From Owenia fusiformis (taxonomy: Eukaryota; Annelida; Polychaeta; Sabellida; Oweniidae): 64,000 nucleotides of DNA. The translations under genes and the position numbers were made by a program. Numbering within the stretch: position 1 is the stretch's first letter; every line of letters begins with the position of its first letter. The notes beneath the pieces are model-generated. The model ran no database searches and had not been told where the DNA came from. It saw only the letters and a list, made by a program, of their open reading frames with translations. Of the stretch, positions 7,083 to 63,956 are shown one piece after another. The stretch covers positions 33,671,375 through 33,735,374 of the forward strand of contig CAIIXF020000005.1 of NCBI GenBank assembly GCA_903813345.2, in the 5' to 3' direction.

Positions 7083-9073
7083 TCACTGTTGCACAGGTAT
7101 AGATTTAGTAGGCGAAGTGACAAACACGGGTGAGTTCAAACTCTCAAGGTTTGTGAAGGTCGGAACACCAGTCGCCATGGGAGAAAATGCAACATGATTG
7201 GACAGATAGTTGCCAGGGAATTGGAATTGTTGTGCAGTAGTGTTGTTGATGCTGATGCGGGGACTTAGGGTGATGAGAGGGCTGAGTGAACTCCAGAAGT
7301 GGAGGGGCATGATTGGTGTGCGCTGGTGGGTCAAGGGAGAAGGGCTTGTTAGCAGGATTGGTGTGGATAATGAGGGAAATTTGGGACTGGGCACTGGTAA
7401 CGTGGACATAGCAAATCCTGGAGGTGCAAGTGTGTTAATCTTAGGACTAGGAAGTGGGCCAGACCCAATATTTGAGATTGGAATAGGGATTGGCTTAGGT
7501 TTGCTTGTAGTACTTGTGATTGTTGTGCTAGTGCCCTGGGATAATGGATTAGATAGAGGACTAGGGGTAGGTTGCATTTGCTGGGGGTGAGGACTATGTT
7601 GTCTTTGTTGGGGATAAGGACTATGTCTATGATTTGGGCGGGGACTGTGTCTTTGAGAGGGAGCTGGACTATGTTGCCTTTGTGGGGGAGCAGGACTGTG
7701 TTGCCTTTGTGGGGGAGCAGGACTATGTTGCCTTTGTGGGGGAGCAGGGCTATGTTGCCTTTGTGGGGGAGCAGGGCTATGTTGCCTTTGTGAGGGAGCA
7801 GGACTATGTTGCCTTTGTGGGGGAGCAGGACTATGTTGTCTTTGTGGGGGAGCAGGACTATATTGCCTTTGTGGGGGAGCAGGACTATGTTGCCTTTGTG
7901 GGGGAGCAGGACTATGTTCCCTTTGTGGGGGAGCAGGACTATGTTGCCTTTGCGGGGGAGCAGGACTATGTTGCCTTTGCGGGGGAGCAGGACTATGTTG
8001 CATTTGTGGGGGAGCAGGACTATGTTGCATTAGTGGGGGAGCAGGACTATGTTGCATTTGTGGGGGAGCAGGACTATGTTGTCTTTGTGGGGGAGCAGGG
8101 TTATGTAACTTGTGTTGGAGAGCAGGACTATGTTGTCCCTGTGAGAGAGAAGGACTTTGTTGCATTTGACTAGCTTGGGAAACATAATTCAATCTATTTA
8201 TCTCTTGCACTTGTTGTATCTCATGTTTGGGACTAGCAGATTGTACCAAGTCTATAGTAACATTGGGTATACCAGTATGTGGAGGAGCTAACTGTGAACT
8301 AGCACCATTGCGTAACAGAGTAAACCCAGTCGACTCTGTCAACATTTGCTGAGATGTTTCAAATTGAGGCTGTTCAAGTTGAGACATGAATGTTCCATCA
8401 GACATAAGTATTCTTGGAATTGAGTCATCTGGCATTGGCTCCAGCTTGAATGTATGATTAAATATAGGGGGCACTGTCATATTGTCTTGATTTGGCTGCT
8501 GTACAGGAGCAGCAGTCCATTTTGGCTCGACTTTTGGCATGAGTGCTTGAGCTTGGGATATAAGCTGTTCTGATTGAGTGTGTTTCACCTGAGTGGAAGT
8601 CTTAGGTAGAGTCCAATGTGATGTCATGCTCTCTGGAATGCCACTAGAATTGCATGTCTTTGCAGGTGGGATTCCTTTCACTTGATATGGCTTAAACGAC
8701 AAGAAGCCAGGCACAGGAGCTGTAGCAGCCTGAAGATTTCTCTGTTCCTGCTGGATGCTCTCCATCTTCTGTTTGAAAGGGATTTTATTCTCAGTTTTGA
8801 TCACTTCGGGGAATGATACAAACCGATACACAAATTTTTGGCCCATCACTTTCTTAATGATATTTTTGTCATAGTAGTAACGAAGAGCTCGACTCAGTTT
8901 ATCATAGTTCATGTTGTTTTTGTTTTTACGGAGGCCCCACTGCTTGGCTACCTCTTCAGCATTGATCAACTTAAATTCACCCTCATTAAGCGTCCATTGG
9001 ATGATGTCATCATGCTGGTTGCTTAGCAACAGTTCAAGTAAAAACTGCCACAGTGTTATGTTAGCATCCATAC
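7083..9073 (-). CDS. ELK: ELK-type (ternary complex factor) ETS transcription factor, last coding exon
   Basis: This exon encodes 662 residues from the MDAN methionine to the stop. Residues 4-87 form an ETS DNA-binding domain ([10 protein letters not shown] start, recognition-helix region [16 protein letters not shown] with Arg61 and Arg64, then GQKFVYRF). The N-terminal position of the ETS domain is typical of ELK1/3/4. Residues 592-598 read FWSSLSP, matching the ERK phospho-acceptor region of ELK1, and 616-619 read FQFP, an ERK DEF docking motif. Known family members bind GGAA sites with SRF and activate immediate-early genes after MAPK phosphorylation. Residues 303-500 are a Ser-Pro/Gln-rich tract with 16 HSPAPPQRQ nonamers, absent from vertebrate ELKs. 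A clear SRF-binding B box was not found. The acceptor is at 9074-9075, giving GT before ATG, in phase with the exon at 11154-11263. The protein is longer than human ELK1 (about 430 residues). Confidence 0.94.
7655..8135. repeat. 27-bp coding minisatellite in ELK
   Basis: Tandem 27-bp units encode HSPAPPQRQ on the minus strand, 16 copies (residues 332-474) with point variants (PLM, PQM, PSQ, YSP, PQRE). Because 27 is a multiple of three, copy-number change keeps the frame. Each unit adds one Ser-Pro site and an SPAPP motif. Long antisense open frames here are a consequence of the repeat. Confidence 0.93.
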
Positions 9074-11153
9074 CTGAAATAAATCAGAAATATTTTTTAA
9101 AACTCCCGCTGATGTTTCTAAAAAAGCTTGTCTCTATAAACATGAAAAGGGGATCAAGTTTTTGAGGTAAAACAAGCTCATAAAATTTCATTATTCCAAA
9201 TTTGGCCTGAAAAATCATTGTATCACATTCTTATACTGGTGAACAGACACTTTTTTGCAATGTACATCTATAACACACTATCATAAATATAAATGATTTG
9301 TCAGATATCAAAATAGTTCAAATGTGATAATTGGAAATAAAGAAATATTAAAATAATTTCCCACTTATATATATATATATATACTAGTTTATTAAATACT
9401 TGATATGCAGCAATTATTTTGGCAAAAAATCTTAGTTATTATGTATGCAGGACTCTAGCGAGAATAATGTTGCAGGAAAACCACAATACAAAATGAGGAA
9501 ATGTTTATCATATGATTTCCTCAGTGTAAGAGTCTAATCCATTAAGCTCTGAATACGAAAAATAAACAAATATCTAAATCGATCCTGATAAGGCCTAAAT
9601 GACCCAAAAAGTAGCTGTCATTGCATTTAATCATTGAACGCTACTTTTGGTAGCTGGATTTCAATCGACCATATTCCAAGTATCCTGATTGGTTAAAGGC
9701 TTGATTAAGGGATGTTTTGAATTCAAAGAGTATAGCTGAAGTTCTCTTTTAAAGAACCAAAACAAACGATTGGAAAGGGTAATCACAAGACAGCCATATG
9801 ATCTAATAACATACTTGTCCAGGCAAAAGTCTGGCAAATTAATCCAATAGCACATGCTCAAGATAAAAGATATATAACATACAGGGTGAGCCAAAAAAGG
9901 TAACCCAGACAAATATTAATAACTCAGTCATCCAGCATGGGTTTTAAGTCATATTTTGCATAACTGAACCTTGTTAATGTTCGTTCTTTCTACCAAGTTT
10001 CATCAGTTTATTCTCAATCGTCATGTTTGGGGGTATTTCAAAATAATGTCTACATTAACAACACTAGAAGCATCAGAGAGTTAAAACAAGAGATTAGAAG
10101 GAAAATGAGGGCCATTACACAAGCATCTGTGAGCTGTAGTACGGATGACTTCATCCAATGCATTGAAGTTTGCCTCCACAGATGAGACTGGTATTTTGAG
10201 CATGTTTTGTAAAATGGCCATTTAACTGTGACCGTTTGTATAAGACCAATTAAACTTGGTAGAATGGGAGAACATTTAACAATGTTTAAATGTGACCTTA
10301 AACCCATGCTGAATGACTGAGTTATTAACATTTGTTTGGGTTATCTTTTTTGGCTTCCATTTTCAGAAACAAGGAAAGCAAGTGTGGGCTGAGCTAATCT
10401 AACAAAGGACAGAATTTCCTTCATATCTTTGTAAGGTGATTAAATAATGTTGCGTTGCAATTACAATGTCTCATCAACAACAATCTTGGGTCTCTTTCTT
10501 ATATTCACTGAAAAGTTGTGGCAGGTGGTGTGTGAGAATAAAACTTAACGTTATCCTCTCTAAATAGCAAAACTACCCTCAGTCAAATCTGACCCCTGAC
10601 CAGAAGTAATACCCCAAACTAAAAAAAAATAATATCCCAAACTAAAAATACTCTTTGACTTCTATAATCTTTGATGCTGATATTTAGGGAGTTTGAACAT
10701 ATAACGAATGTCATCTTCTTAGATAAGTGTATTCCAGGTTCAATATTTCTAATCTAGAGAGTAACAAAAGGTAAAGCTCTTGGAGAGGGTAGCAGGCTGC
10801 ATATTGATAACACTAGACTGAAATTGACAGGATGTTTTGGGATTGACACTGACTTCAAACCTTTGACAGAATGAAACTGGCTTCTGATACTTAACTGTCA
10901 TATTATCACCCACTTATATTCTTTATTCTGCAGAAACATGTTCTTGTCATGTCAGCAATTGTAAACATATTGAGAATGCCATTTAAAAACCTGAACAACA
11001 TTTTGGTACTTTGGGTCATAACTTACAAATCCTTGGAAACCATTGTCTACTTTTAGCTAAATGAAAATGTATTAAAAAGATTTATGAAACTGGTAGAGTG
11101 TCCTTATATGGAAATCTCCAAATAACATATAGCTATAGTTAAAAACGACTAAC
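9074..11153 (-). other. ELK: ELK intron
   Basis: Non-coding between the MDGS exon and the ETS exon; contains an AT microsatellite (9367-9382) and mariner remnant 1. Confidence 0.6.
9882..10358 (+). mobile_element. Mariner-like remnant 1 (ELK last intron)
   Basis: The left end is TA + CAGGGTGAGCCAAAAAAGG; the right end mirrors it (TTTTTTGGCTTCC) but is eroded. An internal frame reads VYINNTRSIRELKQEIRRKM then FIQCIEVCLHR, stop, FEHVL: a decayed Tc1/mariner transposase C-terminus. Confidence 0.78.
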
Positions 11154-11941: not shown

Positions 11942-14900
11942 CTGAAAAATAAATATCATCATTAATTGTGGTAAAAAAGGAATATATTCTGGAATATTCC
12001 CAACAATCTTACACTCAATACTAGACATCTAAATATTTGATGCATAAATATTTACAATAATACAGAGCTTTTTATTTTTCATAACAAGGGCGTACTATTC
12101 ACATGTCTCATATATAACTAAAGGGATCAAACCGACACCAGTCTGCACTCTGAACACACTTTAATCTTTATTACTATTGGATACACTAAAATACATTTCA
12201 CAATGTTAATTAACAAACAAATGCAGCAGGATGTGAACTAATATGAATAGATATTAAATTGTATGCTTGGTAAGGGATGGTTTCCAATTATCAACAGTTA
12301 CGGAATAACAAAGTTAGTTTTGTTAATGGAGGAGGAGGTAAATGATGGTTTCGTTAGTGAATAGTGTTGACTTTTTAAATATTCAAGTGAAAGATAAATC
12401 AACGTTTTTAAATTTTGTTAGAAGAGGGGGTTCAAACCATAATGAAATTAGTTTTTTCTTGACTGTTGATAATTTGACACCATCCCTTTAAGTAAACCAC
12501 ACATTGTAATATCAAACTTGTTTTCAGATGAGTTCAATACAATTGTAACAATTAAAATAGCATGCTGTATTTGTTTTAGCAAATGCAGCGGACAACACCC
12601 TGCGCATATATGAAAAATATATTCAACTCATGAGGACATGATGCAATTAAACAAGTCCATAGAAGATGCGACGAAAGTTGATGATGTGGACAATTGGTGG
12701 TCAAAGAACCTAGCTTAGAGTTAACTGAGAACAACCATTAGATTGGGGCACAGACCTTAATTTGTCTACTGTTAGAACAATGAAAAAAAATAATAAAATG
12801 AGAGTTCATCATTATCATAATTATCACATAAGTTAGAATGATAATTTGTTTTAGTGATTTGTGTTTTTAAGCATAATACTAATTATATAGCTTAGAAGTC
12901 AATGCCATGTGGTATGGAGTCAAAAGCTTGAATGGCTGAATGAGAATGCAATTTAGTTTTTTAGAGTCAGATCGTAACTGCTCTAAAATCTAAGAACAAT
13001 GGCAGGTCTGGAAATTTATAAAAGAGACATATCTTTGAAAATAAGACCCAATGACATAAAATGCCAACATATAATACCATAAGAGAAAACTAATGCAACG
13101 TATAACCTTACCCAAAGCAGCATATGCCCTAACCCAATGCAACGTATAACCTAACCCAAAGCAGCATATGCCCTAACCCAATGCAACGTATAACCTAACC
13201 CAAAGCAGCATATGCCCTAACCCAATGCAACGTATAACCTTACCCAAAGCAGCATATGCCCTAACCCAATGCAACGTATAACCTAACCCAAAGCAGCATA
13301 TGCCCTAACCCAATGCAACGTATAACCTAACCCAAAGCAGCATATGCCCTAACCCAATGCAACGTATAACCTAACCCAAAGCAGCATATGCCCTAACCCA
13401 ATGCAACGTATAACCTAACCCAAAGCAGCATATGCCCTAACCCAATGCAACGTATAACCTTACCCAAAGCAGCATATGCCCTAACCCAATGCAACGTATA
13501 ACCTAACCCAAAGCAGCATATGCCCTAACCCAATGCAACGTATAACCTAACCCAAAGCAGCATATGCCCTAACCCAATGCAACGTATAACCTTACCCAAA
13601 GCAGCATATGCCCTAACCCAATGCAACGTATAACCTAACCCAAAGCAGCATATGCCCTAACCCAATGCAACGTATAACCTTACCCAAAGCAGCATATGCC
13701 CTAACCCAATGCAACGTATAACCTAACCCAAAGCAGCATATGCCCTAACCCAATGCAACGTATAACCTTACCCAAAGCAGCATATGCCCTAACCCAATGC
13801 AACGTATAACCTTACCTAAAGCAGCATATGCCCTAACCCAATGCAACGTATAACCTTACCCAAAGCAGCATATGCCCTAACCCAATGCAACGTATAACCT
13901 TACCCAAAGCAGCATATGCCCTAACCCAATGCAATGTAACAAACTCACAACTGCACATGACAGAACATGATAATCAATAGACTAGATGCGAATAGAAATA
14001 ATCTTGATTTACGTCATTAAATATTCAGTCAAAGTGATGTCATATTTGAAATCTACATGTAAAAGTACATCTAGAAAAATCATTCGAAAATTGTTTATCA
14101 ACTTTGAAAATTTTATTTTATTTGAAAATGTGACTTCTAGCTCGGGTTGATTGCTCATAGACCCCATGTTACAAAATCACAAAAAGTGAAATATCTTTTC
14201 TTGTATTGGACAGATAACATTTTCTTTTACTGGACATATTTTAATTTGCATAACTAGATACATAAGGGTTATACAAAAATTGAACCACTAAAACAGATGT
14301 AATTTAAGTTAAATGGAACTTTCTACTATACCCGCCATGTTATCTGACCCGAACGAGCCACCTGGTGGCAAAACTGGTAACTACCTACTCGCATTTGCGT
14401 TATTGATAACTATTATTCTATAGAATCTTTAAATGTGAACTTAACTGATCCCACTGAATATAATGTAAAGAGAATGAGTTTTGTTTTATGAGAATTTGAT
14501 CTTGAAAGAAAACATTTCTTGAAATACTAAGAAGTAACTTAATCCCAAGAAAAACACAAATATCCCTTACAAACATAATCACATCATTTGTTTCACTGTA
14601 ACAAAGGCCTATTGTTTTGAAGATTTTAATAATTTTGATTCCTTCAAAAGGTTTATGACGTGATGACTTGACTTGAAACATCATACATACTTGGGCTCAA
14701 CTATGTGATATAAGTATGTATGCATATTTAAGGGCTATTAAGTATGTATGCAAGTTAATGCACCAATATCCCTAAATTGACAAATAAATGTCTTAAGGGC
14801 AAACAAATGACAGACTTGCAAAAAACATTTTAAGGTCACATGGTTTGAATTCCTTTCTAACAGTTCTTACATGAAGAGATGACTTCATAAATGACTACAC

Positions 14901-23700: not shown

Positions 23701-26700
23701 AAAATATGTCCATTACAATATTAATATTGCAATGGAGTAAATGTCTCTGTGAATCAATGACCCGCGCATTTATTTGGAGGAAATTCAAACATTAAGGCTG
23801 TTAAGAGTAGATTGGCGTAGTGGTAGACTCACCCCTCTTGGCACAATTAGAAAATTATAACGTATCGACCAAATAAAGCATTTGATAAGCACAAATTGGT
23901 CTTGAAGAATGTTATTTATAAATACCAATTTTCATTTTCCATTTATTGTCCGTAGTATTTGGATAATACAAGAAACCATTTCAGACTCCAGAATCAAACC
24001 ACTTATGGGTTTACGTAATATATAGTAGGCCTACTATTACACGACAAATATTCTATTACAATTCCGTTGAAATAATTACTATATCCATGTTGCATGGTAT
24101 AACCTTATATTGATCATTAATTTACAACTAATTCAATGGATTGAAAAACGAATGTCAATTGGCATCCCTCATCTCATATGTCATCCAATAGAAAAACAGC
24201 TGTATTGACTTGCATGCAATTTCCTCCCATACGTTTTTAGTGAAATTGTGGACGTGTAATATTATGACCCATTGGGATTGCGGGAATGTCGTCCCCCTCT
24301 CAATTATCTTTTCAGGGACCTAATTAAAATCCTATTTTTTTATAATTTTATGCTCAATCAGAGATGTTAATTCTACGAAGGGGAAAACGCATCCATTGAG
24401 GACCATGATTCTACACGCACACGTATTTGTAAGTTAAAACGTGTAGCTTGTTTAACATCCCTTTTGGATGTTTTGTTCAACAGACGTATATATAATTACT
24501 GTTAGTAAGCCCGTTGGTGCCTCAGATGCTGTGCAATATATAGTATGTACAGGAACAGAATAGGGTGAATGGTCAGTATTTTGGTTCTGGAGGATGTTGA
24601 TAAGAGAAGGCTAATTACATACAGCAGGTCTCCATGTTTAAACCATATTTCGTAACCTATTCGTACACTGGTTTCTGCCCATCATCACTTAGCCGTTCGC
24701 CATACTAGTTCTAATATCCACTCTAGATTATGAGCTTCTTCCCTCGTCTGATAATAGATATGGCTTGGATTATCACTATTCATATTCCTATTTATTTCCA
24801 TGGTATTTTAATGTATTAATTGAAAACTGGGACAATATGATGTACTGGGACAATCCGATAAACAGAATATGGCGAACGGCTTAGTGATGATGGGCAGAAA
24901 CCAGTCTACAAAAAATCTTGGTCCCAAATTTTGAAAATGTAATGTCCATATTTTGAAAATTTAGCAAAAAATGAAAAACAAGGCCCGAAAAGGCCAAGTA
25001 ATGCCCAAAAGGCCCACTTATTGAGACCCCAAAAATTGGGAATATGATGCACTGGCATGGGACAATATGATATAATCGGACAATATGATGTAGTTGGACA
25101 TAGAGGTTGTTTACTGGGAGGGATTTAACATGGGGTTTATTCCAAGGGACAATATGGTATTTCCCGAGGCCCCGATAATGTGCTGGGACAATATTGTGCA
25201 CTTGAGCACTATGGTGCAATGGGACAATATAATGTACTGGGAGAATTGAGTATTTGTTAAGTATTCAAGCTGGAGAATCGAGTATTTGTAAAGTATTCAA
25301 GCTCGAGAATTGAGTATTTGTAAAATATTCAAGCTGGAGAATGTATTCAAGCTTGGAATTGAGTATTTGTGAAGTATTCAAGCTACAGAATTAATTATTT
25401 GTAAAGTATTCAAGCTGGAGAATTAAGTATTTGTAAAGTATTCAAGCTTGGAATTGAGTGTTTGTGAAGTATTGAAGCTGGAGAATTATTGAATTATTGA
25501 GTATTTATAAAGTATTCAAGCTGGAGAATTGAGTGATCGTGAAGTATTGAAGCTGGAGAATTATTGAATTATTGAGTATTTATAAAGTATTCAAGCTGGA
25601 GAATTGAGTGATCGTGAAGTATTTAAGTTGAAGAATAAAGTATTTGTTAAGTATTCAGTTGGAGAATCACTGAGTATTTGTGAAGTATTCAAGCTGGAGA
25701 ATTGAGTATTTTTAAAGTATTCAAGCTGGAGAATTGAGTATTTGTAAAGTATTCAAGCTGGAGAATTGAGTATTTGTGAAGTATTCAAGCTAGAGAATTG
25801 AGTGTTTGTAAAGTATTCAAGCTGGAGAATCACTGAGTATTTGTGAAGTATTCAAGCTGGAGAATTGAGTATTTGTAAAGTATTCAAGCTGGAGAATTGA
25901 GTATTTGTGAAGTATTCAAGCTAGAGAATTGAGTGTTTGTAAAGTATTCAAGCTGGAGAATCACTGAGTATTTGTGAAGTATTCAAGCTGGAGAATTAAG
26001 TATTTTTAAAGTATTCAAGCTGGAGAATTGAGTATTTGTAAAGTATTCAAGCTGGAGAATTGAGTGTTTGTAAAGTATTCAAGCTGGAGAATCACTGAGT
26101 ATTTGTGAAGTATTCAAGCTGGAGAATTGAGTATTTTTAAAGTATTCAAGCTGGAGAATTGAGTATTTGTAAAGTATTCAAGCTGGAGAATCACTGAGTA
26201 TTTGTGAAGTATTCAAGCTGGAGAATCAATGAGTATTTGTGAAGTATTCAAGCTGGAGAATTGAGTATTTTTTAAGTATTCAAGCTGGAGAATTGAGTAT
26301 TTGTAAAGTATTCAAGCTGGAGAATCACTGAGTATTTGTGAAGTATTCAAGCTGGAGAATCAGTGAGTATTTGTGAAGTATTCAAGCTGGAGAATTGAGT
26401 ATTTTTTAAGTATTCAAGCTGGAGAATTGAGTATTTGTAAAGTATTCAAGCTGGAGAATTGAGTATTTGTGAAGTATTCAAGCTAGAGAATTGAGTGTTT
26501 GTAAAGTATTCAAGCTGGAGAATCACTGAGTATTTGTGAAGTATTCAAGCTAGAGAATTGAGCATTTGTAAAGTATTCAAGCTGGAGAATCACTGAGTAT
26601 TTGTGAAGTATTCAAGCTGGAGAATCACTGAGTATTTGTGAAGTATTCAAGCTGGAGAATCACTGAGTATTTGTGAAGTATTCAAGCTGGAGAATTGAGT

Positions 26701-29700
26701 ATTTTTAAAGTATTCAAGCTGGAGAATTGAGTATTTGTAAAGTATTCAAGCTGGAGAATTGAGTATTTGTGAAGTATTCAAGCTAGAGAATTGAGTGTTT
26801 GTAAAGTATTCAAGCTGGAGAATCACTGAGTATTTGTGAAGTATTCAAGCTAGAGAATTGAGCATTTGTAAAGTATTCAAGCTGGAGAATCACTGAGTAT
26901 TTGTGAAGTATTCAAGCTGGTGAATCACTGAGTATTTGTGAAGTATTCAAGCTGGAGAATCACTGAGTATTTGTGAAGTATTCAAGCTGGAGAATTGAGT
27001 ATTTTTAAAGTATTCAAGCTGGAGAATTGAGTATTTGTAAAGTATTCAAGCTGGAGAATTGAGTATTTGTGAAGTATTCAAGCTAGAGAATTGAGTGTTT
27101 GTAAAGTATTCAAGCTGGAGAATTGAGTACTTGTTAAGTATTCAAGCTAGCGAATTGAGTATTTGTGAAGTATTCCAAGTTGGAGATTTAAGTATTTGTA
27201 AAGTATTCAAGTTTGATAATTATTGATTACTTGTAAAGTATTCAAGTTAGAGAATGAAGTATTAAGTATGTGTGAAGTATGCAGTATGAATATTTGTGAA
27301 GTATTCCAGCTGGAGAATTGTGTATGGTAAAGTATTCAAGAATGGAATTGCAATTGAGTATTTAAGACAGAGAATCGTAAATTATACAATATCAAATTGA
27401 GAATATTTGTGAAGCATTCGTGATGGTATTTGCATCGTCTAAGTATGTGAAAGACCTAACCTTACCTTACCTTACCTAACCTTACCTTAGGGTCTCAACA
27501 ACCGAAGTGCTGGCATCTTTGTTTATCATTGTTAGATGATGACCGACTACAGTAACCACCTGTTGCTCACAGTTACTCTCGAATCTATCAAAGATGCGAG
27601 ATGATAGACCAACGTGTTCGAACGAGATACTCAATTCTCAAGCTTGAATACTTCACAAGTACTCAATTCCCAAACTTGAATACTTCACAAGTACTCAATT
27701 CTCCAGCTTGAATACTTCACAAATACTCAATTCTCTAACTTGAATACTTCACAAATACTTAATTCTCCAACTTAGATATCGATATATTTAAAAGCAATGA
27801 AGCGTTAATAAGTGTTTCATCGCAGAGTATCTCCATATCCATTTTGCCGCACCTGAAATATTCGCTGCCACCATCAAAGATAACACGAGTGTCATTATTG
27901 TCAACTTCATTGCGACCATCTTGACTAATGATTTTCTATTCTGGAGGTTTATTCTGGGGTACAGATTTTATTATTCGGTCGTGCTTTTGGCATATTCTAT
28001 GATATCATATCATCTATATTAGCTAATTAAAACGGCTTGTAAATTAGATATTTCATTGGATGAAAAAGCCAGAGATTCAACGTTCGTCAACATTCAACAC
28101 GCCATGCATAATTGTACATACAAATGCAAAATATTAGCATTGGAATGTTGGCAATGAAATCCGAGAGTCTACCCAGTGTGAACATCTCCTCACATCACCT
28201 GTCTGTGGTTCGACATGTGGAGCAAACAGCAACTGCCAAACCAGTATTTATGATGTTATGAATGAGTTGAAACTTCAAGGGAGTCATATAAAATCTATCA
28301 GTTTACAAATTGGATGTTAGACGAAGGATGGTAGTTTAACTATAGGTAACATAAACACAAACTTGCCCAGTGATGTTTGAAGTTATTTATTATTTGAGTA
28401 AATACTGAGCAGTTGGATCCTTTTTGAGGATTTGTTACATGTCTGATTGAACCAACTCAGTCATTTTCAGATTTTAAGAATTTAGACTCAAAGTTTCAGA
28501 CTGAAAATTTGTCTACAGACAATTGCTCCAATAAATTGAGTTATGGCTTCACAAAATGGCTTCAGAAAATCTCATTCTTTACCCTGGGAACCCGGAGACT
28601 GACTCTCTGCAAAGCTATCTTAATTTGAGAGGAGCAAAGTCATATGTAAAGGGTAGAAGAATAGTATACTCGGATAGATTTCAATGGTAATATACAGGGC
28701 GGTCCAAAATTAAAACCCTCATATATATTCTCCTTTAATGGGTATGTGAAGTTATGGACCAAATGTCATAAAAATTGAATAATTTTGAAGATGTGTACAT
28801 AAAATTGTTGAACAACGCATTTAACGACTGTGACCTGTAGTCACAGATGTTATTGTTTGATATCAATTATGTACAATATTTATCTAAGTATCCAAAACGA
28901 ACGAATAACATCCTTTTAATCAGTGTTCCATTTTTTCAGGTTGAGGCTCGGTACCTCGCCTCTTTACGTGCCAGGCGCAATCTTGTGTTGGTTAGAGGGA
29001 ATGACAAGGTGATAGACCGGGACTTACCGCTCTATAAAGATGCGCTGCTCAAACGTGGGTACGGCGTTGAGGTAGAGACTACCACGGGGATTCCATGGAA
29101 AGGATACAATACTTCAGGTACTAGCTTACACCAATGCTTCATTTAAGGTAAAGGGCTTATTTATCCCTCAATTCAGAAAGAACGTAAAATACCATTGGAC
29201 CAAGAATGGATTACTTTGGTTTTTGATAGCCCTATCCTCAGGTATAGATTTACATCCGGATGGGAATGGAAAGAAATTTATACATTATGATTAGTATAGG
29301 AGAATGCTCCTAGTTACCAATAGAAACTGTAAATCCAAGTAAACCAGTAACAATCCTAAATTCTTAAGTTTCTAATGGTATTTTGAGCGAACAGGAACAA
29401 TAAACAATGTGACTGAGGAATGGGAACATAATATACCTGAAAGTTACTTCATTTAGACAGGCACTTAAAAGCGAACACTATATGCTTGTTAGCCTATATT
29501 GCCGAGTAACCTTGATTTTAGTGCAATGCCACTCTGATCTGTATCTGTGTATTGTACATCCACAAAGGGCAACATTAAGAAAATGATCATTCTTGAAACT
29601 ACATAATTTGGGCATAGTGTTTAGGTGTCGAGAAACCTTCGCCATATTTTCCTTTATCATTTGTACATATTTACCATAATTCCATATTTAGATAAACCCG

Positions 29701-32700
29701 AAAAGAAGGAAGATTGGTTGTCAGTTATATGTATGAGCTTTACTGATGGCGAAACTGACTGTATGCAACGGGAAAACTATACAGACATGACCCCAGGACA
29801 GACAATCAACCGCATTCCTGGAATAAGAAAATCCCTATGGAGAAAAGATGGTCTCTGTAGAACAATGAACGCAGTTAGACACATTCCAGGTATTTCCAAG
29901 TTATTCTAGGTTATTGTGCTCTAAATCATAACGTATGTGCTTGCCTCCACCCTTTGTATTATAATATGGCTTTCCGGTTGTTTTGCATAATATTTATAAC
30001 TCTGTGATGTTTCACATGTCACTTGCAATCGTGTTTGTGAGTGTCTGGTGTATTTCATGATCACGGTTCTTGTTGGTACAATCACTGTGCTCACTGTAAT
30101 CCACCAAGAAGGAACGACTAAACAAAATCGAATTTTAATGTTGCCTTACAACATTTTAGTGTCCATTTTTGGTCACCACATTTAAATAATTATTTTGGCT
30201 CATCATCCGCATTTTAGTAATTATTTTGGCTGATCATTGGCTATATTTAACTGTTCATTTTGGCGAAGCAGATTTCAATGTTTCATCTCAGTTGAACCCT
30301 AGAATGAAGAAAAGAAATTCATTCTAGTTTGTAACCTACTTTACATCAATCAAACAGGTACACCCTGACATCACTGCTACCCACCTAATTACACAGACGT
30401 ATCGTCGGTGTATCATGGCGGAACTTCCTCCGGGACTAGGTTTCGATAAGATTTTTTTATTTCCCGATTTACACCTACTTATAAGTCACGTTGTGGATAA
30501 TAATTTGGCTCGAAGTTAAGGAAGATAGTGTAGTTTGAGAATGTGTCGATGGTTTTAGGTTTTATATGTTAACAAAGACACAATTCACGTATTTAGTCCC
30601 TCGCTTTTCTTACACTGACGAACGACCAATATCAGTGTAATATTGGCAATATTAATGCCGATCGTCATATCGGGAAATAAAAAAATCTTACCGAAACCTA
30701 GTCCCGGAGGAAGTTCCGCCATGATACACCGACGATACGTCTGTGTAATTAGGTGGGTAGCAGTGTGACATGGTACTTTTACTGCAGATTTGTGTTCCAT
30801 TTCTCATACTTCTACTGCATTCTCACTGCCATCTATCAATTAATAAATGTTTTATTTCTTAAACGACATAAACGTTTTTTGTTTCAGTACTAAGAGATAG
30901 TAACCTATCACCCTTGTGTTATAACCTACCTGAACAGCAAGAATCATTCCAGTCAATATCAAGGCACACACCTATCTCACCATGGATCATCAAATCTGTT
31001 CTACCCGCGGGGAGTATACATCTCTTGTCTCCAACTAGACAACCACTTCTCCGCACATATAAGTAAGTATACATTTCTTGCCTCCAACTAGACAACCACT
31101 TCTCCACACATATAAGTAAGTATACATCGCTTACCTCCAACTAGACAACCACATCTCCGCGACATATAAGTAAGCATACATCTCTTGTCTCCAACTAGAC
31201 AACCACATCTCCGCACATATAAGTAAGTATACATCTCTTGTCTCCAACTAGACAACCACTTCTCCGCACATATAAGTAAGTATACATCTCTTGTCTCCAA
31301 CTAGACAACCACTTCTCCACACATATAAGTAAGTATACATCTCTTGTCTCCAACTAGACAACCACTTCTCCACACATATAAGTAAGTATACATCTCTTGT
31401 CTCCAACTATACAACCACATCTCCGCACATATAAGTAAGTATACATCTCTTGTCTCCAACTAGACAACCACTTCTCCACACATATAAGTAAGTATACATC
31501 TCTTGTCTCCAACTAGACAACCACATCTCCGCGACATATAAGTAAGTATACATTTATTGCCTCCAACTAGACAACCACTTCTCTGCACATAAAAGTAAGT
31601 ATACATCTCTTACCTCCAACTAGACAACCACATCTCCGCGACATATAAGTAAGCATACATCTCTTGTCTCCAACTAGACAACCACATCTCCGCACATATA
31701 AGTAAGTATACATCTCTTGTCTCCAACTAGACAACCATTTCTCCGCACATATAAGTAAGTATACATCTGTTGTCTCCAACTAGACAACCACATCTCCGCA
31801 CATATAAGTAAGTATACATCTCTTGTCTCCAACTAGACAACCACTTCTCCACACATATAAGTAAGTATACATCTCTTGTCTCCAACTAGACAACCACTTC
31901 TCCACACATATAAGTAAGTATACATCTCTTGTCTCCAACTAGACAACCACATCTCCGCGACATATAAGTAAGTATACATCTCTTACCTCCAACTAGACAA
32001 CCACATCTCCGCACATATAAGTAAGTATACATCTCTTACCTCCAACTAGACAACCACATCTCCGCACATATAAGTAAATATACATCTCTTACCTCCAACT
32101 AGACAACCACATCTCCGCACATATAAGTAAGTATACATCTCTTGTCTCCAACTAGACAACCACTTCTCTGCGACATATAAGTAAGTATACATCTCTTGTC
32201 TCCAACTAGACAACCACATCTCTGCACATATAAGTAAGTATACATCTCTTGTCTCCAACTAGACAACCACTTCTCCACACATATAAGTAAGTATACATCT
32301 CTTGTCTCCAACTAGACAACCACTTCTTCACACATATAAGTAAGTATACATCTCTTGTCTCCAACTAGACAACCACATCTCCGTACATATAAGTAAGTAT
32401 ACATCTCTTGTCTCCAACTAGACAACCACATCTCCGCGACATATAAGTAAGCATACATCTCTTGTCTCCAACTAGACAACCACATCTCCGCACATATAAG
32501 TAAGTATACATTTATTGCCTCCAACTAGACAACCACTTCTCTGCACATAAAAGTAAGTATACATCTGTTGTCTCCAACTAGACAACCACATCTCCGCACA
32601 TATAAGTAAGTATACATCTCTTGTCTCCAACTATACAACCACATCTCCGCACATATAAGTAAGTATACATCTCTTGTCTCCAACTAGACAACCACTTCTC

Positions 32701-35700
32701 CACACATATAAGTAAGTATACATCTCTTGTCTCCAACTAGACAACCACATCTCCGCGACATATAAGTAAGTATACATTTATTGCCTCCAACTAGACAACC
32801 ACTTCTCTGCACATAAAAGTAAGTATACATCTCTTACCTCCAACTAGACAACCACATCTCCGCGACATATAAGTAAGCATACATCTCTTGTCTCCAACTA
32901 GACAACCACATCTCCGCACATATAAGTAAGTATACATCTCTTGTCTCCAACTAGACAACCATTTCTCCGCACATATAAGTAAGTATACATCTGTTGTCTC
33001 CAACTAGACAACCACATCTCCGCACATATAAGTAAGTATACATCTCTTGTCTCCAACTAGACAACCACTTCTCCACACATATAAGTAAGTATACATCTCT
33101 TGTCTCCAACTAGACAACCACTTCTCCACACATATAAGTAAGTATACATCTCTTGTCTCCAACTAGACAACCACATCTCCGCGACATATAAGTAAGTATA
33201 CATCTCTTACCTCCAACTAGACAACCACATCTCCGCACATATAAGTAAGTATACATCTCTTACCTCCAACTAGACAACCACATCTCCGCACATATAAGTA
33301 AATATACATCTCTTACCTCCAACTAGACAACCACATCTCCGCACATATAAGTAAGTATACATCTCTTGTCTCCAACTAGACAACCACTTCTCTGCGACAT
33401 ATAAGTAAGTATACATCTCTTGTCTCCAACTAGACAACCACATCTCTGCACATATAAGTAAGTATACATCTCTTGTCTCCAACTAGACAACCACTTCTCC
33501 ACACATATAAGTAAGTATACATCTCTTGTCTCCAACTAGACAACCACTTCTTCACACATATAAGTAAGTATACATCTCTTGTCTCCAACTAGACAACCAC
33601 ATCTCCGTACATATAAGTAAGTATACATCTCTTGTCTCCAACTAGACAACCACATCTCCGCGACATATAAGTAAGCATACATCTCTTGTCTCCAACTAGA
33701 CAACCACATCTCCGCACATATAAGTAAGTATACATCTCTTGTCTCCAACTAGACAACCACATCTCCGCACATATAAGTAAGTATACATCTCTTGTCCCCA
33801 ACTAGACAACCAATTCTCCACACATATAAGTAAGTATACATCTCTTGTCTCCAACTAGACAACCACATCTCCGCACATATAAGTAAGTATACATCTCTTG
33901 TCTCCAACTAGACAACCACTTCTCCACACATATAAGTAAGTATACATCTCTTGTCTCCAACTAGACAACCACATCTCCGCACATATAAGTAAGTATACAT
34001 CTCTTGTCTCCAACTAGACAACCACATCTCCGCACATATAAGTAAGTATACATATCTTGTCTCCAACTAGACAACCACTTCTCCGCACATATAAGTAAGT
34101 ATACATCTCTTGTCTCCAACTAGACAACCACTTCTCCACACATATAAGTAAGTATACATCTCTTGTCTCCAACTAGACAACCACATCTCCGCACATATAA
34201 GTAAGTATACATCTCTTGTCTCCAACTAGACAACCACTTTTCCGCACATATAAGTAAGTATACATCTCTTGTCTCCAACTAGACAACCACATCTCTGCAC
34301 ATATAAGTAAGTATACATCTCTTACCTCCAACTAGACAACCACATCTCCGCACATATAAGTAAATATACATCTCTTGCCTCCAATTAGACAACCACATCT
34401 TCGCACATATAAGCAAGTATACATATCTCTTTTGAAATTATTATTAAATGTTATTAGAAGTGGTTAATAAGTCCAAAGTGGGCTGGGTTGTTTGATATTA
34501 ACATTGTACTTTGTATGACTTTATTTTGTATGACCTGAGACTAAGTTAGTCTCAGGTATGACTTACCACTATAAATAAAAAGAAAAGAAATAATGTATAG
34601 ATGTCATCTTATAGTAACTACTACGTGAATATCAAATTATTAGATCGGTGACACTCAAAACATTAACTCCCACAGAGTGATTTTAAGTTCGCTAGGGTCT
34701 ATTCTTAATTACATCCAGTTTTGGCCAGTTTCAACAGGTTGGGCGTTGTTAAGTTATACTAATCATTCTTGTTAATTCGAAAAAATAGTACATGCCTTTT
34801 ACATTGTCCATCGTCTTTGCGGTGGTCTAATGTTTTAGGTTCACTCTAGGTTCTAACGGACCTTTCAAATATGGACTACTTTTGTCAATTCTTCACGGCG
34901 GTAAAGCAGACCTGATGATACAATGAGCTTGCTCGGCGGTATCATGACTGTGTAACGGGGCTTGGTGTATAAGCGAACTCGGCGGTAGGTTCAAACAACG
35001 CGGATCCTCAAAGCATGTGCTCATGGTACCATCGTGGCTTAACACTCGAGTTTCTTGCAGGTATTCAAAGACGCAACCATCTGTTGTACAGCAGTACATC
35101 AGTAACCCCCTCCTGGTCAAAGGTCTGCCATTTAGCATGAGGGCATTCGTACTCGTTACGTCATTCTCCCCTCTCAGGGCATACATCCATTCCGAAGGCC
35201 TTGTGCAGTTCAGGTACAGCTACGAGCGAAACTTTAAAAAGGTAAGGGGATTAAACATTGTCAATAATGATGAGATCATTTGGTGATTTGTCTTTCAATA
35301 GACCGAGTTACTATGGACCAGGGTCGTGGACTAACACGATTACTAATATAGTGCTATTACAACTTTATTAGCTTCAAGTTCTAAAAAATATTTTCGCAAC
35401 AAACTGTTATCTTTGAAAGGCAGTGATAACAGCATAAATTTCATTCAGTGTATCATAAAGCCATGTGTCCCCTCTTTCCAATGGTATTCCAATTGGTATT
35501 GACATTGGGTCATGGTTGGGTGAAAATCATTTATTTTGCAAAGTGGGCTAAAATTAGATTGGGACAGAGTTATAGACATCGCAAACGTAAACGTCAGTGC
35601 AGGGGGCAATGTGCTATTGGAAGAAACAATAAATAAAACCAATGATGACTGTATCCTTTTCATTCAATGCATCACAAAGCCACATTTCCCCTCTTTGCAA

Positions 35701-38700: not shown

Positions 38701-41700
38701 GGCTGCGTGGAATACATCCCCCGGAAATGTTTGTATAGACTTCAATTACAAAAAGGCGTATTTATTAATCAATACTAATAATTGTTAATTGTTTATATTA
38801 TAATTATTCATAATATTAATCAACATATTTTTGGGTTTTAGAGAGTTTTCAAATGAACAACCGCCTGAAACATTAGTAGAAAATATATTCATCAACAAAA
38901 CACAGTCGAAAGGTAAGATTATAATACAAATCATAAAATGCTTGTATAAAATGTAAATGTACAGGGTGACCGGAAAAAAAGGAGACCATTGAAGTAATCA
39001 ATTTCTCCTAAACTAGACAAGTGCCATCAATGAAATTTTGCATACACTGGAACAGTTATATGGAAATTTGTTACTGAAGGTTTCAATACAAGCATTCAAC
39101 TGGTTCAGGAGCTATGATCATTTACATAACATGCTCCAAATAGGCACAATTGAGACCAACGCAGAGTTGGATTCATATGGCAAACTACCCTTACATGTTC
39201 TGCCCTCTATGGCATTATTATGGCATTACATATAGCAGTGATTGCCTTCTTTAGGTCAACAATAGTCTGAGGATTGTTTTGGTATAGATTGTCTTTCAAA
39301 TATCCATACAAAAAGAAATCAGCAGGATTCAAGTCTAGGCTGTAATGGCAATGAAGGGTTATCTGACATGTGGTTCATCATCCTGTTGCCAAAGTGCTGA
39401 TTTACCAAATCTTAAGAGTCACTTTAGGTATTGGGCATAGTGCCATGTTACTAAAACCACTATATGGCACAATTAAATCCCATATGAAAAGTAAGGGCTG
39501 CCCAAAACCTCCTTAGGATGATACTGTAACTGAGTGGGACCACTGAGTCAGAAGCCATAGGTCAGATAAGCTTCGTCTCCATACACCTCAAATTTGAATC
39601 CACCTGATTTCTTTTTGTGGGGCAATTTGAAAGACAATGTGTACCAAAACAATCCTGAGACAATTGCTGACCTAAAGGTGGCAATAAATGCTAAATGTAA
39701 TGCCATAACAAGGTCGGAATATGTAAGGGTATTTGCCAAATGTATCCAGCTCTGCGTTGGTCTCAATTGCGCCTATTTGGAGCATGTTATGTAAATGATC
39801 ATAGCTCCTGAACCAGTTGACTGCTTGTATTGACACTTTCAGGAACAAATTTCCATAGAACTGTCCTGATGTATGCAAAATTTCATTGATGTCACTAGTC
39901 TATTTTAGGAGATATTGCCTATTTCAATGGTCTCCTTTTTTTCCGGTCACCCTGTATTTCAGTATTAAGAAAATCCATACAATAATTTTAAAGGTATCTA
40001 AGTGAAAATTGCATATTAGGATAACTTATTATTTTCAGACAAATATGTAAGGCATCACTGTGAAGAAGATCTAACATCTCTGTCTCTACTAAGCGGCATA
40101 TTCACCGAGCCTGCAATCGCTCTCAATTTCTCCCCTACCGTCTACATCTACGATATAGAGGTCGCTTATGATGTTCAAGTTGTTAAAATATGGGCATTCG
40201 CTATGAATTGTCATTGTGAGGCGAGGACGGATAGCAAAATTGGACCAACAAGGTATGTACTGACATTGGTTTTTGAGGGAATGATACATTCTCAAAATTC
40301 ATTTCGTTCGTTGCATACCTTCATTACGTCAGTAAAGGAGGTACGGATTGCACTGAACGAAAGGCTCGGGGATTGGGAATGATACAACAGCGTTATATGG
40401 GCTATTAGTCTTTTTCTTTGATCAAAACTTCAGAGCAAATGGCAGCATTATAAAAATACAAGACCAACCATTCAAAGTATTTTAACTGTAAACATAAATA
40501 TAAAAGCATTAGCTGATTCACTCGCACATGGGCTTTCAACAGCAGTCTCTTGACCGGTGTGAAAGAAATTATGGTCCCCCGTGGATTATGGTTCCCCTTC
40601 TTAACGGCCCTGATTGTGTGTAAGATAATAAGGAAAATGGCCACCATTGCATATAAATCAATGGAGAGTAGGACCATAAATTAATAGGACCTCCTTCCCT
40701 TTTACACCTGGCCTCTTGAAAACCCATGACTCGTACGCGTATAACGAGAAAACAGCGAAATAATAGAGAGGTTAAGCTACACGTATAAATGCAAACCGTG
40801 AACCTGAACGCGTAAGTCCACGCTCAAGTACACGTTTAAGAAAATTTTCTGTTAAGCTACACGTCTGAAACCATGTCAGTGGGCGTGGAGCTATATTCAT
40901 GTGGTGCCTGTGACTGAGGGTCATGTTTCTATGGTGTAATGGATAGCACTTCGGACTCGTGAACGTTAGGCCTGGGTTCGAATCTAGTCGCATCAAAACA
41001 TTTTGTTTTTTATTTTTGCTTTATTTCATATTCAACCACAATTAAATGATCTAGTGCGCCCTCCATTATAATCTCCCCATGAACAAAATAAAGTCATCTG
41101 ATTTTTCAAAATGAATATTCTGCTTTTATTATTGATATGTACACTAGTATCTTGTTGACCTATATTCAGCACTGTATTGATGAATGGGCCACTTATTAGG
41201 GCCAATATTCAACCATAAAGTGTACAGGGGTAGAGATGCCACACCAGGAAGTCTGTGTGTCCGTCAAAATCCATTTGCATCCTACACATCCCTACATCTT
41301 ATCCAGTATAATCTTTGGATTTACAAAGTTGTATGGGATTTCATAAGTGTAAAAGTTGCTTTTGAAGCATTTTTCTTTAGCCATTTTGTAGGAAAAAATG
41401 ATGAAAAAATGTACAATCTTTTAATTTAAAGTATGACCTGAATCGATTGATCGATACTTTATATTTGTACATCTGATGTGATATACCATTTGTGTCATAT
41501 TAATTGTGACATTATTTAATTTGCAATCAATTCAGGCCATTCAGTCATTCAGATTCAGGCAAATCAAATGTAGTGATAAGGCAATCGTAGGCCCTGGTTG
41601 TCATTTCATTTCGTTTAGTATACATATTGTACCAAGCCCCGGGAATCAAATTAGCCCTGCCTATTTATATTGTACGGAATGAACAAACGATCACATTTGA

Positions 41701-47700: not shown

Positions 47701-50700
47701 AATGTCGATTTTCAAAAATTCATCAAATTCATCATCAATTTTCGACCTACTGTAATTGAGGAAAACAATTGAGAAAATTTGGAGGTATTGGAATTAAAGT
47801 CAAATTACGTTTCCATCAATAGTATAAGTATTTTCATCGCAGGTTAAGTAAATAAAAATTCAAAGGTAAAGAGGCTTTAACACGTAGTTAAATGGGGGAA
47901 AAAAGGTTGCCAAACTTATGGAGGGGAGTGTAGTCACAGCGCCATGCATTCATAAGTTAAATGAACCTCAATTGCTAAATGTACAGTCTGTTACACTGCT
48001 TCAAAGGCAAGCAGTTGAAGCTGAAAAATAAGAAATCTAAAGACTATTGTGCCATAAAATGTAGAAAAATGTCTTCATATTGCACACAAATAACATTTGT
48101 AAATTTCAGATTATTTAGTGTTTAGTGCAATAAGCCTGTACCCTCTTGTAATTTGAGGTCTATCCGCCATGTTATTTTTTCAATAGTAGTTTGTTATTTA
48201 TGCTTATTTATACAGGGTGATCACTAAGTTCTGGGAATTTATCTGTCATTTAATTATTTTTCAACCAATTTACTTGAAATTTTCAAGGTAAATGGGGAAT
48301 GTAATTTTGGGGTGGATAAAACAGTCTCATTGTCATCTGATGTCACAATGGATAATTATTGTTACTATAGCAACATGATAAATGGCGTAGCGGGTCAAGT
48401 AAAATAAAAATGAATTCAAATTTTGCTTGATCCAAAAGTATGGTTAATAAATACTTATTTGGTGGACATATTTCTGTGATTTTTTATATTTTCAAATACT
48501 TCTAACTTAAGTTTCTAAAGTAACATCTTTATTGTTATATAAGAGTGTACTTTGCTCTATTTTTGTATCATTCATCAGCATCTCAAAGTAACAATCATGA
48601 CCAAAAATAGCGGGGAGTTATCTTCCATTATGACTATGCTCCTTCCCATTACTCAAGCTGCCCATACTACTCTTGAAGAATTGGGGTTCACACAACTTAT
48701 TACTGCCCCATATTCATCAGGCAATATTCCCCAGATGAAGCACCATTAGGCTTCACTACATTTTGGGGTGCTAAAGCATCATATGAGAGGTCATAAGTTT
48801 GATTCCAATAAGGAACTGATTTCAACGGCTTGTGCAAATCTTCAAGGGATGCCAAAGGGAGGACTGGAACACATCTTTATGGACTAAGTTTGTCAACAAC
48901 GCATATGCGTCCAGGGTAATCGAAACAATCATAAATGAAATGGTCCTCTCAGCAATGAAGAATACTTCTGAATAAATGACTTCAAGAGTACTGTTCTGCC
49001 TCTAGTACAAGTAGTTTGAAGCAACTATCTAGGCAAAATGAATATGTTTTGGCAGGAGATTTTCAAATTAACATCAGTCAAAATTTGCTGACCCGCGAAC
49101 CACTTTTACTTTTTTTGTAATTACAATAAAATAAATTGTAGATGTGATATGTATATGAAACATTGCTTGACAATTCAGAATTATACAATGTACACCTGCT
49201 GAAAATTTTAACTCAAATGGTTGAGAAATCTTGAAATGGCAGACCAATTCCCAGAACTTAATGATCACCCTGTATTCCCTATACTCTCTAACATACCCAT
49301 CCTTTACATTGTGTACTAAATAAAAAAAGTAAATAACTGTCCATGAGTTCATCTTTCTTATACAGGTGTTATTTCTTGGTGACTCTACCAACAGAGGTAT
49401 CATGCATTACATGATGGAAGCTGTCAATGGGACTCTCACTCAGATTGATAAGTCCCACGGTATAGTAGTATACAACAACCTCAACTTTGGGCGCACTAGT
49501 ATGGCATTTGCTTATTACCCGCAGTTCTGGCAGCCTGATGCAAATAAAAGAAGTTTAGCTGATACTCTTACAAAGCTCGTCCAAATGTAAGTACTAGTAC
49601 ATGTAGCTCGTTGAAAACTCAGGCAGTTTAGCACTACTTTGAGCACATTTCAAGTGATTTTGGGCCAAAATTGTCATATTTGTACCCCTGGATTTTTTAA
49701 GCTTCCCCCATCATTGGCAAAAGCTAGCTACGGACGTGGAACTCAAATATATAAATTCGAATATCTGGGACAAAAACAATACATTCATTCCCAAATGTTG
49801 ATCTACACGCAAGTAACACTACAGGAGCCTTGGATTCATAGGTTTTCAATGAAGTCCTTGAAGTATATTAAAACATTCAGTTAAAATACATATACACTTG
49901 AAGGAAAATGAAACAATTAACACCAAGTTCGGTTTTGTAAAGTTTCACTTTCATAACATACTTTTGTAACATTACATTCCGGAAGTAGTTCTCCTAATAC
50001 TGTATACGTAATTTGCATTCATTTGTTATATTTTTTAGGGCTGGCCCATTGAACAACAACAGTAATACTGTATTGGTAGTTGGTGGCGTGAGTTGGCTGA
50101 TGACAAAACATTTTCCTCTTATTATTTCCGCGCTCAACAGGATTGACTTACAGGGAATTAAGCTGGTCATAAAGAGCATGGGCACAACTAATATAGAGAA
50201 GGTATTCACAAAAATGTCGTACTTCATTGTTTTCATAACTACAAAAGGCTGTTAATGAGAGAATGTTTTTCAAACGTGCATAGTATATAAAAATATAATG
50301 AAATATAACAGAATGAAATGCTTTATCATGTCATGTCATTTATAAAAAGAATCTGGGTGGGGGATACAATTTTTGTGCATTCGATTATATTGTTTTGGAT
50401 ATTGTTTATCACCATTTTGAATATTGTTGCTATTATGACTGGTTGGCAAATAGCCATTTCCTTACTAGTTATACCACCGAACGAAGTTCCAGAGGGATAT
50501 AGAGAGGCCGTCCGTTCGTTCGTCTGTCTCTCTGTCTGTCTGGGGAATAACTCAGAAACTGGTTTGCGGATTGGTTCAAATTGTATTTGGCTTATGCCTT
50601 GTGGGTGGAGGGCCTCTGCTCGAGAAGATATTTTCAATATGCCAACTCAATTTAAAATGCCCGCCAGTTTTCTTTAAAAAAATAATCATTGATAACTCAA

Positions 50701-63129: not shown

Positions 63130-63834
63130 TTACGAAATTGTACAACTTGTGTTAGCTTTTGATTTTCTTAAATTTGAAGAAGTATAATTTATAAAAGTCA
63201 ATGGCACTGATTTTCGTCTCTCTCCTGGAGCAACTGTTGCAGGGCTATCTGTACATTGTGCATTTTCTCGGAGGTAATGTTCTTTGGTGATTTCACTGAA
63301 TAAGGTGGTGATATTGATATCATCTTTAGCAGATGTCAGAATAAAGTCGTCACATTCCCAATCTACTGTTGCCACAATTTCAGCAGTAATTGGACAGACC
63401 TCTCTCTCACGTTCAGGGACGTCGGATTTATTCGCGACAACGACAATATATGTGGGTTTGTCTCCCCGTTCTTCGAGGATTTCCTGTCTCAGTCTGTCAA
63501 CTTCCTCGAATGATTTGCTGTCATCCAGGGAAAAGACAAGAATAAAAGCGTGGCTGATGGTCATTGAAACCCTCATCATCGCTGGGAACTGGTAGCTCCC
63601 AGTCGTATCGACAATCTCCATCAACTGAACGTTGTTTTTGCTGATTTTGTACTGTTTCTGATGAAAATCCTCCACGGTCGCTTTGTGTTTCTCGTTAAAC
63701 GTGTCATTCATGAAGCGGTTTACGATGCACGTTTTGCCAACCGCTGCTGCTCCCATTATCGCAATCCTGAGAGGTCTGGATTTGACTCTGGAACTGCCAC
63801 CGTTCCTCTTGGTACTCGAGCTTCTTCCGTTCAT
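63130..63834 (-). CDS. RASD-like (Dexras/Rhes-type) Ras-family GTPase, single exon
   Basis: A 234-residue intronless ORF. G1 P-loop GAAAVGKT (28-35), switch I ATVEDFH with Thr53, G3 DTTG (76-79), G4 NKSD (135-138), G5 SAK (168-170) and a C-terminal CAAX box CTIS (231-234), predicted farnesylated. The TVEDFH...QFPAM and FILVFSLD..SFEEV..LRQEIL segments match the RASD1/RASD2 pattern better than classical Ras, and RASD1 ends in a similar CVIS. The residue after DTTG is Ser rather than Gln61 of Ras, as in RASD proteins, implying low intrinsic GTP hydrolysis. The N-terminal 20 residues are Ser/Arg-rich. Proposed role: small GTPase signalling at membranes. It could instead belong to another RASD/RASL subgroup; a tree is needed. 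Confidence 0.9.
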   Translation of the reverse strand: MNGRSSSTKRNGGSSRVKSRPLRIAIMGAAAVGKTCIVNRFMNDTFNEKHKATVEDFHQKQYKISKNNVQLMEIVDTTGSYQFPAMMRVSMTISHAFILVFSLDDSKSFEEVDRLRQEILEERGDKPTYIVVVANKSDVPEREREVCPITAEIVATVDWECDDFILTSAKDDINITTLFSEITKEHYLRENAQCTDSPATVAPGERRKSVPLTFINYTSSNLRKSKANTSCTIS

Positions 63835-63956
63835 GATCGATCTTCGTCAGAAATGTATATAATATATATATGTGTATATATTGGCAGAAAGTTCTTGTTT
63901 GGTTTTTAGTTCTTCAAAGTCGAGCTGTTGTCTGATAAGATTGCTTATTTTGCTCA

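Follow-up and report, generated by a model that had tools for sequence, protein, structure and literature searches.

A minisatellite of about 64 splice donors at the end of a coding exon in the annelid Owenia fusiformis, with like arrays at other genes

Minisatellite-like tandem duplications of exon-intron boundaries have been described in lancelets, where the amphioxus globin genes BflGb6 and BflGb9 carry them and where the earlier 'mirages' of Adh3 have units of 10-72 bp (PMC3087553). TnC and PGBD5 provided further amphioxus mirages (PMC3902484), and the relevant passages of both papers report that regular splicing is not disturbed (PMC3087553, PMC3902484). Here we consider a repeat of the same kind in the annelid Owenia fusiformis (assembly GCA_903813345.2): a 53-bp tandem array of about 64 copies that begins inside a coding exon of a gene with a tubulin-tyrosine ligase (TTL) family domain and amplifies the splice donor of that exon. 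The window, that is, the whole stretch of DNA analysed, comprises 64,000 nucleotides of contig CAIIXF020000005.1 (positions 33,671,375 to 33,735,374, forward strand), and the positions below refer to it.

Human genes supply comparable cases. The 31-bp variable number tandem repeat (VNTR) of CBS is written c.1444_1467+7(16_21) (PMC2630376), a name that we read as 24 exon and 7 intron bases in 16-21 copies. In the CBS variant 844ins68, as the same source describes it, splicing at a duplicated junction of intron 7 and exon 8 uses the more distal site and removes the upstream exon segment (PMC2630376); on our reading, this distal site is the innermost one. Two downstream repeat units of human IFI6 (6-16, G1P3) serve as donors (PMC4526556, citing Turri et al. 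1995), and variable repeats at an exon-intron boundary have been put forward as possibly giving rise to new introns in human paralogues (PMC2812944). Among annelids, the earthworm metallothionein gene has intron minisatellites, which the passages concerned do not place across an exon end (PMC12783039), and no annelid exon-boundary minisatellite was met in those parts of the literature that were searched for precedents. An earlier note on this DNA, made from its letters, had stated that no donor array of this sort was described; the CBS VNTR (PMC2630376), IFI6 (PMC4526556) and the lancelet mirages (PMC3087553, PMC3902484) contradict this statement, and the array is not singular in its own genome either, since its architecture recurs at other conserved genes. 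The kind of repeat has already been described; the interest lies in how large this array is, in its occurrence in an annelid and in the presence of such arrays on either exon side within a single genome.

The array occupies positions 31013-34428 (+) and extends from the exon into the following intron. Tandem Repeats Finder reports 64.2 copies with 94% matches (score 5935), together with a second row for the same array at a period of 479. Parsing resolved 64 units and a partial copy, with 63 spacings of 53 bases (52 cases) or 54 bases (11 cases); the units fall into 22 distinct types, their pairwise difference averages 5.8%, and the lag-53 identity of the array is 0.81, a value to be set beside the 0.31 or less reached by 200 shuffles. 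Copy 1 (31013-31065, +) consists of the last 50 bases of the exon (31013-31062) and GTA of the intron, and is identical in sequence to copy 5. Both the composition of this unit and its roughly 64-fold amplification next to its own exon had been proposed in the earlier note and are borne out. Within the array, a segment of 1139 bases that holds units 8-28 (31373-32511, +) matches exactly a second segment holding units 31-51 (32597-33735, +), so that 21 units are identical at a shift of 23; this duplication points to recent array growth, or else to misassembly at that stretch. The array ends (34363-34428, +) in a decayed last unit, with donor GCAAGT, and a partial copy, AGTATACAT, after which unique intron sequence begins. 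A 9-base repeat is shared by the two array ends. The microhomology that had been suggested as the seed of the first duplication is therefore real as a repeat, while its seeding role is conjectural, because any tandem array that ends in a partial copy shows such a repeat. A genome-wide search with the 53-bp unit, of a type that can miss repeats, returned 28 matches, all of them within the array.

The amplified exon belongs to a gene model of four spliced exons on the + strand, here called exons 2 to 5 (a slash marks the exon end at each donor). 'Exon 2' (28940-29117; acceptor CATTTTTTCAG, donor CAG/GTACTAGC) is an open frame that leaves in phase 1; 'exon 3' (29692-29889; acceptor CATATTTAG, donor CAG/GTATTTCC) runs from phase 1 to phase 1; 'exon 4', whose tail is amplified (30888-31062; acceptor TTTGTTTCAG, donor TAA/GTAAGTAT), enters in phase 1 and leaves in phase 2, which fits 'exon 5' (35061-35241; acceptor GTTTCTTGCAG, the exon following TTTCTTGCAG; donor AAG/GTAAGGGG), where the codon AA/G is completed. 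The resulting 244 residues match Pfam TTL at 67.5 bits (cut-off 20.1 bits; E 1.5e-18) over residues 94-234, a match that begins in 'exon 3', spans 'exon 4' with its amplified tail and runs on into 'exon 5'. In the PDB, the spliced protein also matches TTLL6 and TTLL7, both of them tubulin polyglutamylases, although in the printed TTLL6 alignments the residues of the tail are poorly conserved and gapped. Because the TTL match crosses the residues encoded by copy 1, we take the tail to be, in all likelihood, original coding sequence; the basis for this lies in the frame, the phases and the continuity of the match, and not in identities within the tail itself.

The exon-proximal donor, GTAAGT (31063-31068, +), is followed by a long series of equivalents. 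The sequence AAGTAAGTAT is exact in 55 of the 64 copies and occurs nowhere else on the + strand of the window, and GT is present in 63 of 64. That every copy keeps a donor, as had been claimed, is thus slightly overstated: nine deviate, with GTAAGC in five, GTAAAT in three and GCAAGT in the last unit. The equal strength of dozens of donors is upheld by the computed energy of pairing with U1, which is -7.5 kcal/mol in 55 donors (the first included), -4.5 in five, -4.0 in three and -3.3 for the GC donor; the U1 5' end used in this calculation was present at four of six U1 loci inspected. (The U1 small nuclear RNA genes form a tandem array of their own at G000:C9:23745153-23771556, with 34 genes among the matches listed and a spacing of mostly 750 bases.) Reading on past the first donor meets TAA at once, and when each donor was joined to 'exon 5' an open frame resulted in 1/64, the first, and in 0/63 downstream donors, as the earlier note had anticipated. 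One candidate explanation, that the donors are held by selection, was rejected: variable columns are as frequent in the donor as in the remainder of the unit (3/8 against 16/45), and variant cells among distinct units number 4/176 in the donor and 44/990 elsewhere (p 0.22). Conservation is thus no higher in the donor columns than in the others, and nothing indicates that the donors are retained because they are used.

These features invite comparison with the systems introduced above, as far as the published passages describe them. With the amphioxus mirages the array shares a tandem repeat laid across an exon-intron boundary, here with the real exon end as one of the copies, units that often carry splice signals (55/64 identical donors and 63/64 with GT in Owenia), boundaries affected at both 5' and 3' sides, and homogenised units. 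It differs in lying in an annelid and not a cephalochordate, in its approximately 64 copies, and in that the splicing outcome was examined in lancelets while the Owenia array is known from sequence; the cephalochordate host belongs to the circumstances in which mirages were discovered and stands outside their anatomical description. Mirages are also described as unstable in length; in Owenia, the exact internal duplication of 1139 bases may reflect recent growth. The CBS VNTR resembles it in uniting an exon tail with an intron start, so that the donor itself is amplified (50 exon bases and GTA in Owenia), and in units that vary through substitutions, whereas the CBS repeat has units of 31 bp in 16-21 copies and is polymorphic in people, as against 53 bp and 64 copies in one assembly. 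IFI6 likewise has an exon-end tandem repeat that supplies several splice donors, with the difference that its downstream units are used and yield three mRNAs, whereas in Owenia the frame through 'exon 5' stays open from none of the 63 donors that follow the first. The repeats of human segmental duplications are also variable tandem repeats at an exon-intron boundary; there, novel introns in recent paralogues are at issue, and here an ordinary intron (PMC2812944).

We consider the array to be, with good probability, an exon-boundary minisatellite of the mirage type that expanded neutrally and is tolerated because the innermost, exon-proximal donor is the one predicted to be used. As the anatomy shows, a tandem duplication captured the last 50 bases of the coding exon with the start of the intron, and unequal exchange or slippage may then have raised the number of copies to 64. 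By exon definition, the splicing machinery would pair the acceptor of the exon with the nearest, exon-proximal donor; the other 63 copies would leave as intron, the gene would keep working, and the array itself would need no function. The copy in the exon is among the more central units (rank 6/64 by mean distance), as expected of a source unit. A dispersed satellite captured by the exon was also considered and rejected: the search for the unit, although not certain to detect every repeat, found it here alone, and the conserved coding match encloses the tail. The earlier note had posed a dilemma, namely that either the donors are ranked by position at this locus, or mis-splicing must be tolerated or put to use. 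This was a fair way to put it, and the lancelet mirage report, so far as its passages on splicing go, would by analogy favour ranking by position (PMC3087553).

Arrays with donors were sought throughout the genome with a pattern in which three strong donors follow one another at a period of 22-52 or 53-83, the same pattern reversed serving as control. Thirty-six clusters, of which 35 were read, represent the matches listed, and the listings cover the first positions among 728 and 1330 matches, respectively. The shorter periods contributed 22 clusters (12 picked first, then nine, giving 21 fetched; a simple repeat at C3:18547940 was left out) and the longer periods 14 new clusters, all fetched, although the sequence of L038 stops short of the 5' end of its array. 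Among these matches, a database-supported exon end adjoins the array in 10/36 clusters. The supporting Pfam matches are to Muted (L009, 5.9e-15), NIF (L011, 4.9e-6), CUB (L018, 2.3e-8) and, below the curated cut-offs, ELP3_N (L010, 2.2e-5), UDPG_MGDP_dh_N (L016, 0.0033) and ORC6_2nd (L017, 4.6e-5); Not1 (L028, 2e-43) and HSP70 (L048, 2.3e-6) were matched as well, and two further exons with no Pfam match resembled PDB entries, namely DECR1 (L012, 7.9e-11, reaching the exon end) and ATP11C (L029, about 2e-5). An exon tail of at least 16 bases forms copy 1 in 8/10 supported clusters, the arrays of L017 and L028 merely adjoining the exon. Each supported exon ends where the array has its first donor, except that in L016 and L017 the exon end lies at a donor just upstream of the matched cluster.

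A further 15 clusters appear exonic by eye only or have sub-threshold matches (L013, L015, L019, L021, L022, L026, L027, L036, L037, L040, L042, L045, L046, L047 and L049); in Pfam scans the by-eye exons gained no support, L042 matching nothing but ribosomal S25, below threshold, and five short exon translations searched against the PDB matched nothing convincingly. By eye, no coding exon was seen in seven clusters (L014, L020, L023, L024, L025, L041 and L044), and L038, L039 and L043 were placed in neither class. Five exon-anchored donor arrays at unrelated genes (L009, L010, L011, L012 and L018) have a period of exactly 52 bases in common; reversed-pattern arrays are, by eye, mostly shorter in period, and the common period is perhaps due to chance.

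A corresponding pattern for acceptors, with three strong sites, matched 156 times, and its reverse 124 times. About 28 clusters were listed, and the right flanks of 13, chosen by eye, were fetched; the yield can therefore not be read as a rate. At a Nup93/Nic96 gene (L060; Pfam, 5.5e-16) and at an aryl-alcohol-oxidase-like gene (L056; PDB, 1.3e-4, no Pfam match), the acceptor array has the exon head as its last copy; in L050 and L062 an acceptor array precedes an exon with a weak match (0.0062 and 0.0097), and the other nine flanks fetched had no database support. For the protein to be intact, the predicted exons must use the first site in donor arrays and the last site in acceptor arrays. These would be the innermost pair, which is the choice that exon definition would make.

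Several observations weigh against our explanation. Matches to the donor pattern numbered 728 as against 926 for the reversed pattern at periods of 22-52, and 1330 as against 1124 at periods of 53-83. Counts so near the reversed control mean that donor arrays need no cause beyond a repeat-rich genome, and the proposal that they are numerically special to this genome was rejected on the same counts; in addition, the nearness of the arrays to exons is partly built in, the pattern itself holding the donor motif. Of the ten exons with database support, three (L010, L016 and L017) fall under the Pfam curated cut-offs. Beyond the TTL part, the identity of the host gene as CPED1, the name by which the earlier note knew it, depends on weak matches. 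Donors 2 to 64 mostly equal the first in computed U1 pairing (55/64, the first included), and when donors are duplicated in vitro the downstream, intron-proximal site has often been favoured.

The same equality of donors is what might be expected if the array tuned expression, some transcripts being spliced from downstream donors, meeting the immediate TAA and being degraded, with copy number setting the output of the gene. No downstream donor of the 63 opens a frame, as this proposal would have it. The IFI6 unit, for its part, is reportedly read in frame. Use of downstream repeat units in IFI6 (PMC4526556) and, going by the title of a paper, an association of the CBS VNTR with reduced activity lend the proposal some plausibility. 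Nevertheless we regard it as unlikely, given that conservation in the donors does not exceed that of the remaining unit, that splicing is reported to proceed undisturbed at the lancelet mirages (PMC3087553, PMC3902484), and that like arrays sit at unrelated genes, which suits tolerance better than regulation.

Two other explanations seem to us very improbable, and about equally so. The array could have been born inside the intron, with the exon later capturing a donor and deriving its tail from the repeat; the exact identity of the exon copy and unit 5 would allow sequence to have flowed either way. Yet the TTL match crosses the tail, even if the TTLL6 alignment is weak within the tail itself, and the amplified tails of other genes in this genome are conserved protein, as in DECR1, where the match continues up to the exon end. 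Alternatively, the array may be collapsed or expanded by assembly, or the locus may be a defunct copy of the gene, for which correct splicing has ceased to matter. The exact internal duplication of 1139 bases could indeed stem from mis-assembly, in which case the true copy number may not be 64, but exons, phases and TTL match are intact on either side of the array, and the genome yielded no second copy of these exons, the part in 'exon 5' being all that matches outside the locus, at an identity of at most 50%.

A broader proposition may be entertained, albeit one we hold to be somewhat less probable than its negation: a single rule could tolerate all such arrays, exon definition always joining the innermost acceptor and donor whatever identical competitors lie outside, and mirages would then be a recurrent form of intron growth across animal phyla and not a lancelet oddity. 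Were this true, the Owenia genome would be a natural experiment on splice-site choice, with many genes bearing minisatellites made from their own exon boundaries. Splicing laboratories construct by hand what this genome supplies, identical competing donors beside a real exon end; one case offers 64 donors, 55 of them identical, and further cases occur at conserved genes on either side of exons. RNA from Owenia fusiformis would show whether position alone decides the choice of donor. With this array, exon-boundary minisatellites are represented not only in lancelets and human genes but in an annelid as well, and the finding suggests that minisatellite turnover can reach the coding sequence at the end of an exon.

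The names 'CPED1' and 'exon 4' are plausible for the host, the gene model covering 'exon 2' to 'exon 5'. A weak cadherin-like match downstream (40110-40235, +, equivalent to G000:C5:33711484-33711609; PF12733, 20.7 bits, below the cut-off of 24.2) is compatible with the CPED1 name. An open frame at 49333-49590 (+) has a weak match to NXPE4_C (13.2 bits, below the cut-off of 27), which we take to be a PC-esterase-type domain. Presumably, these sub-threshold downstream matches fit the domain make-up of CPED1. Just upstream of 'exon 4', near-identical short frames (ITQTYRRCIMAELPPGLGF) lie on opposite strands at 30328-30519 and 30585-30803 in a fold-back-like arrangement.

Other repeats and frames were seen in the window. 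A 32-bp minisatellite of about 54 copies lies at 25240-27340, and a shorter array at 27627-27773 looks like its reverse complement; a 44-bp tandem array occupies 13092-13938 (19.2 copies, 98% matches). An open frame of 666 residues at 7083-9083 (-), ETS-domain-like by eye, contains a coding 27-bp repeat array (7571-8168) with nine-residue units like QHSPAPPQR, and an open frame at 63130-63846 (-) resembles, by eye, a small Ras-like GTPase. A lancelet as host was considered and rejected. Genome searches for GFP and COX1 gave no match, the GFP result being no evidence of absence because its control gave no signal. On C6, by contrast, six matches to Eryth_link_C, the annelid erythrocruorin linker family, fall within about 22 kb, four of them over the cut-off, one of these only together with its neighbours, a cluster in keeping with an annelid genome.

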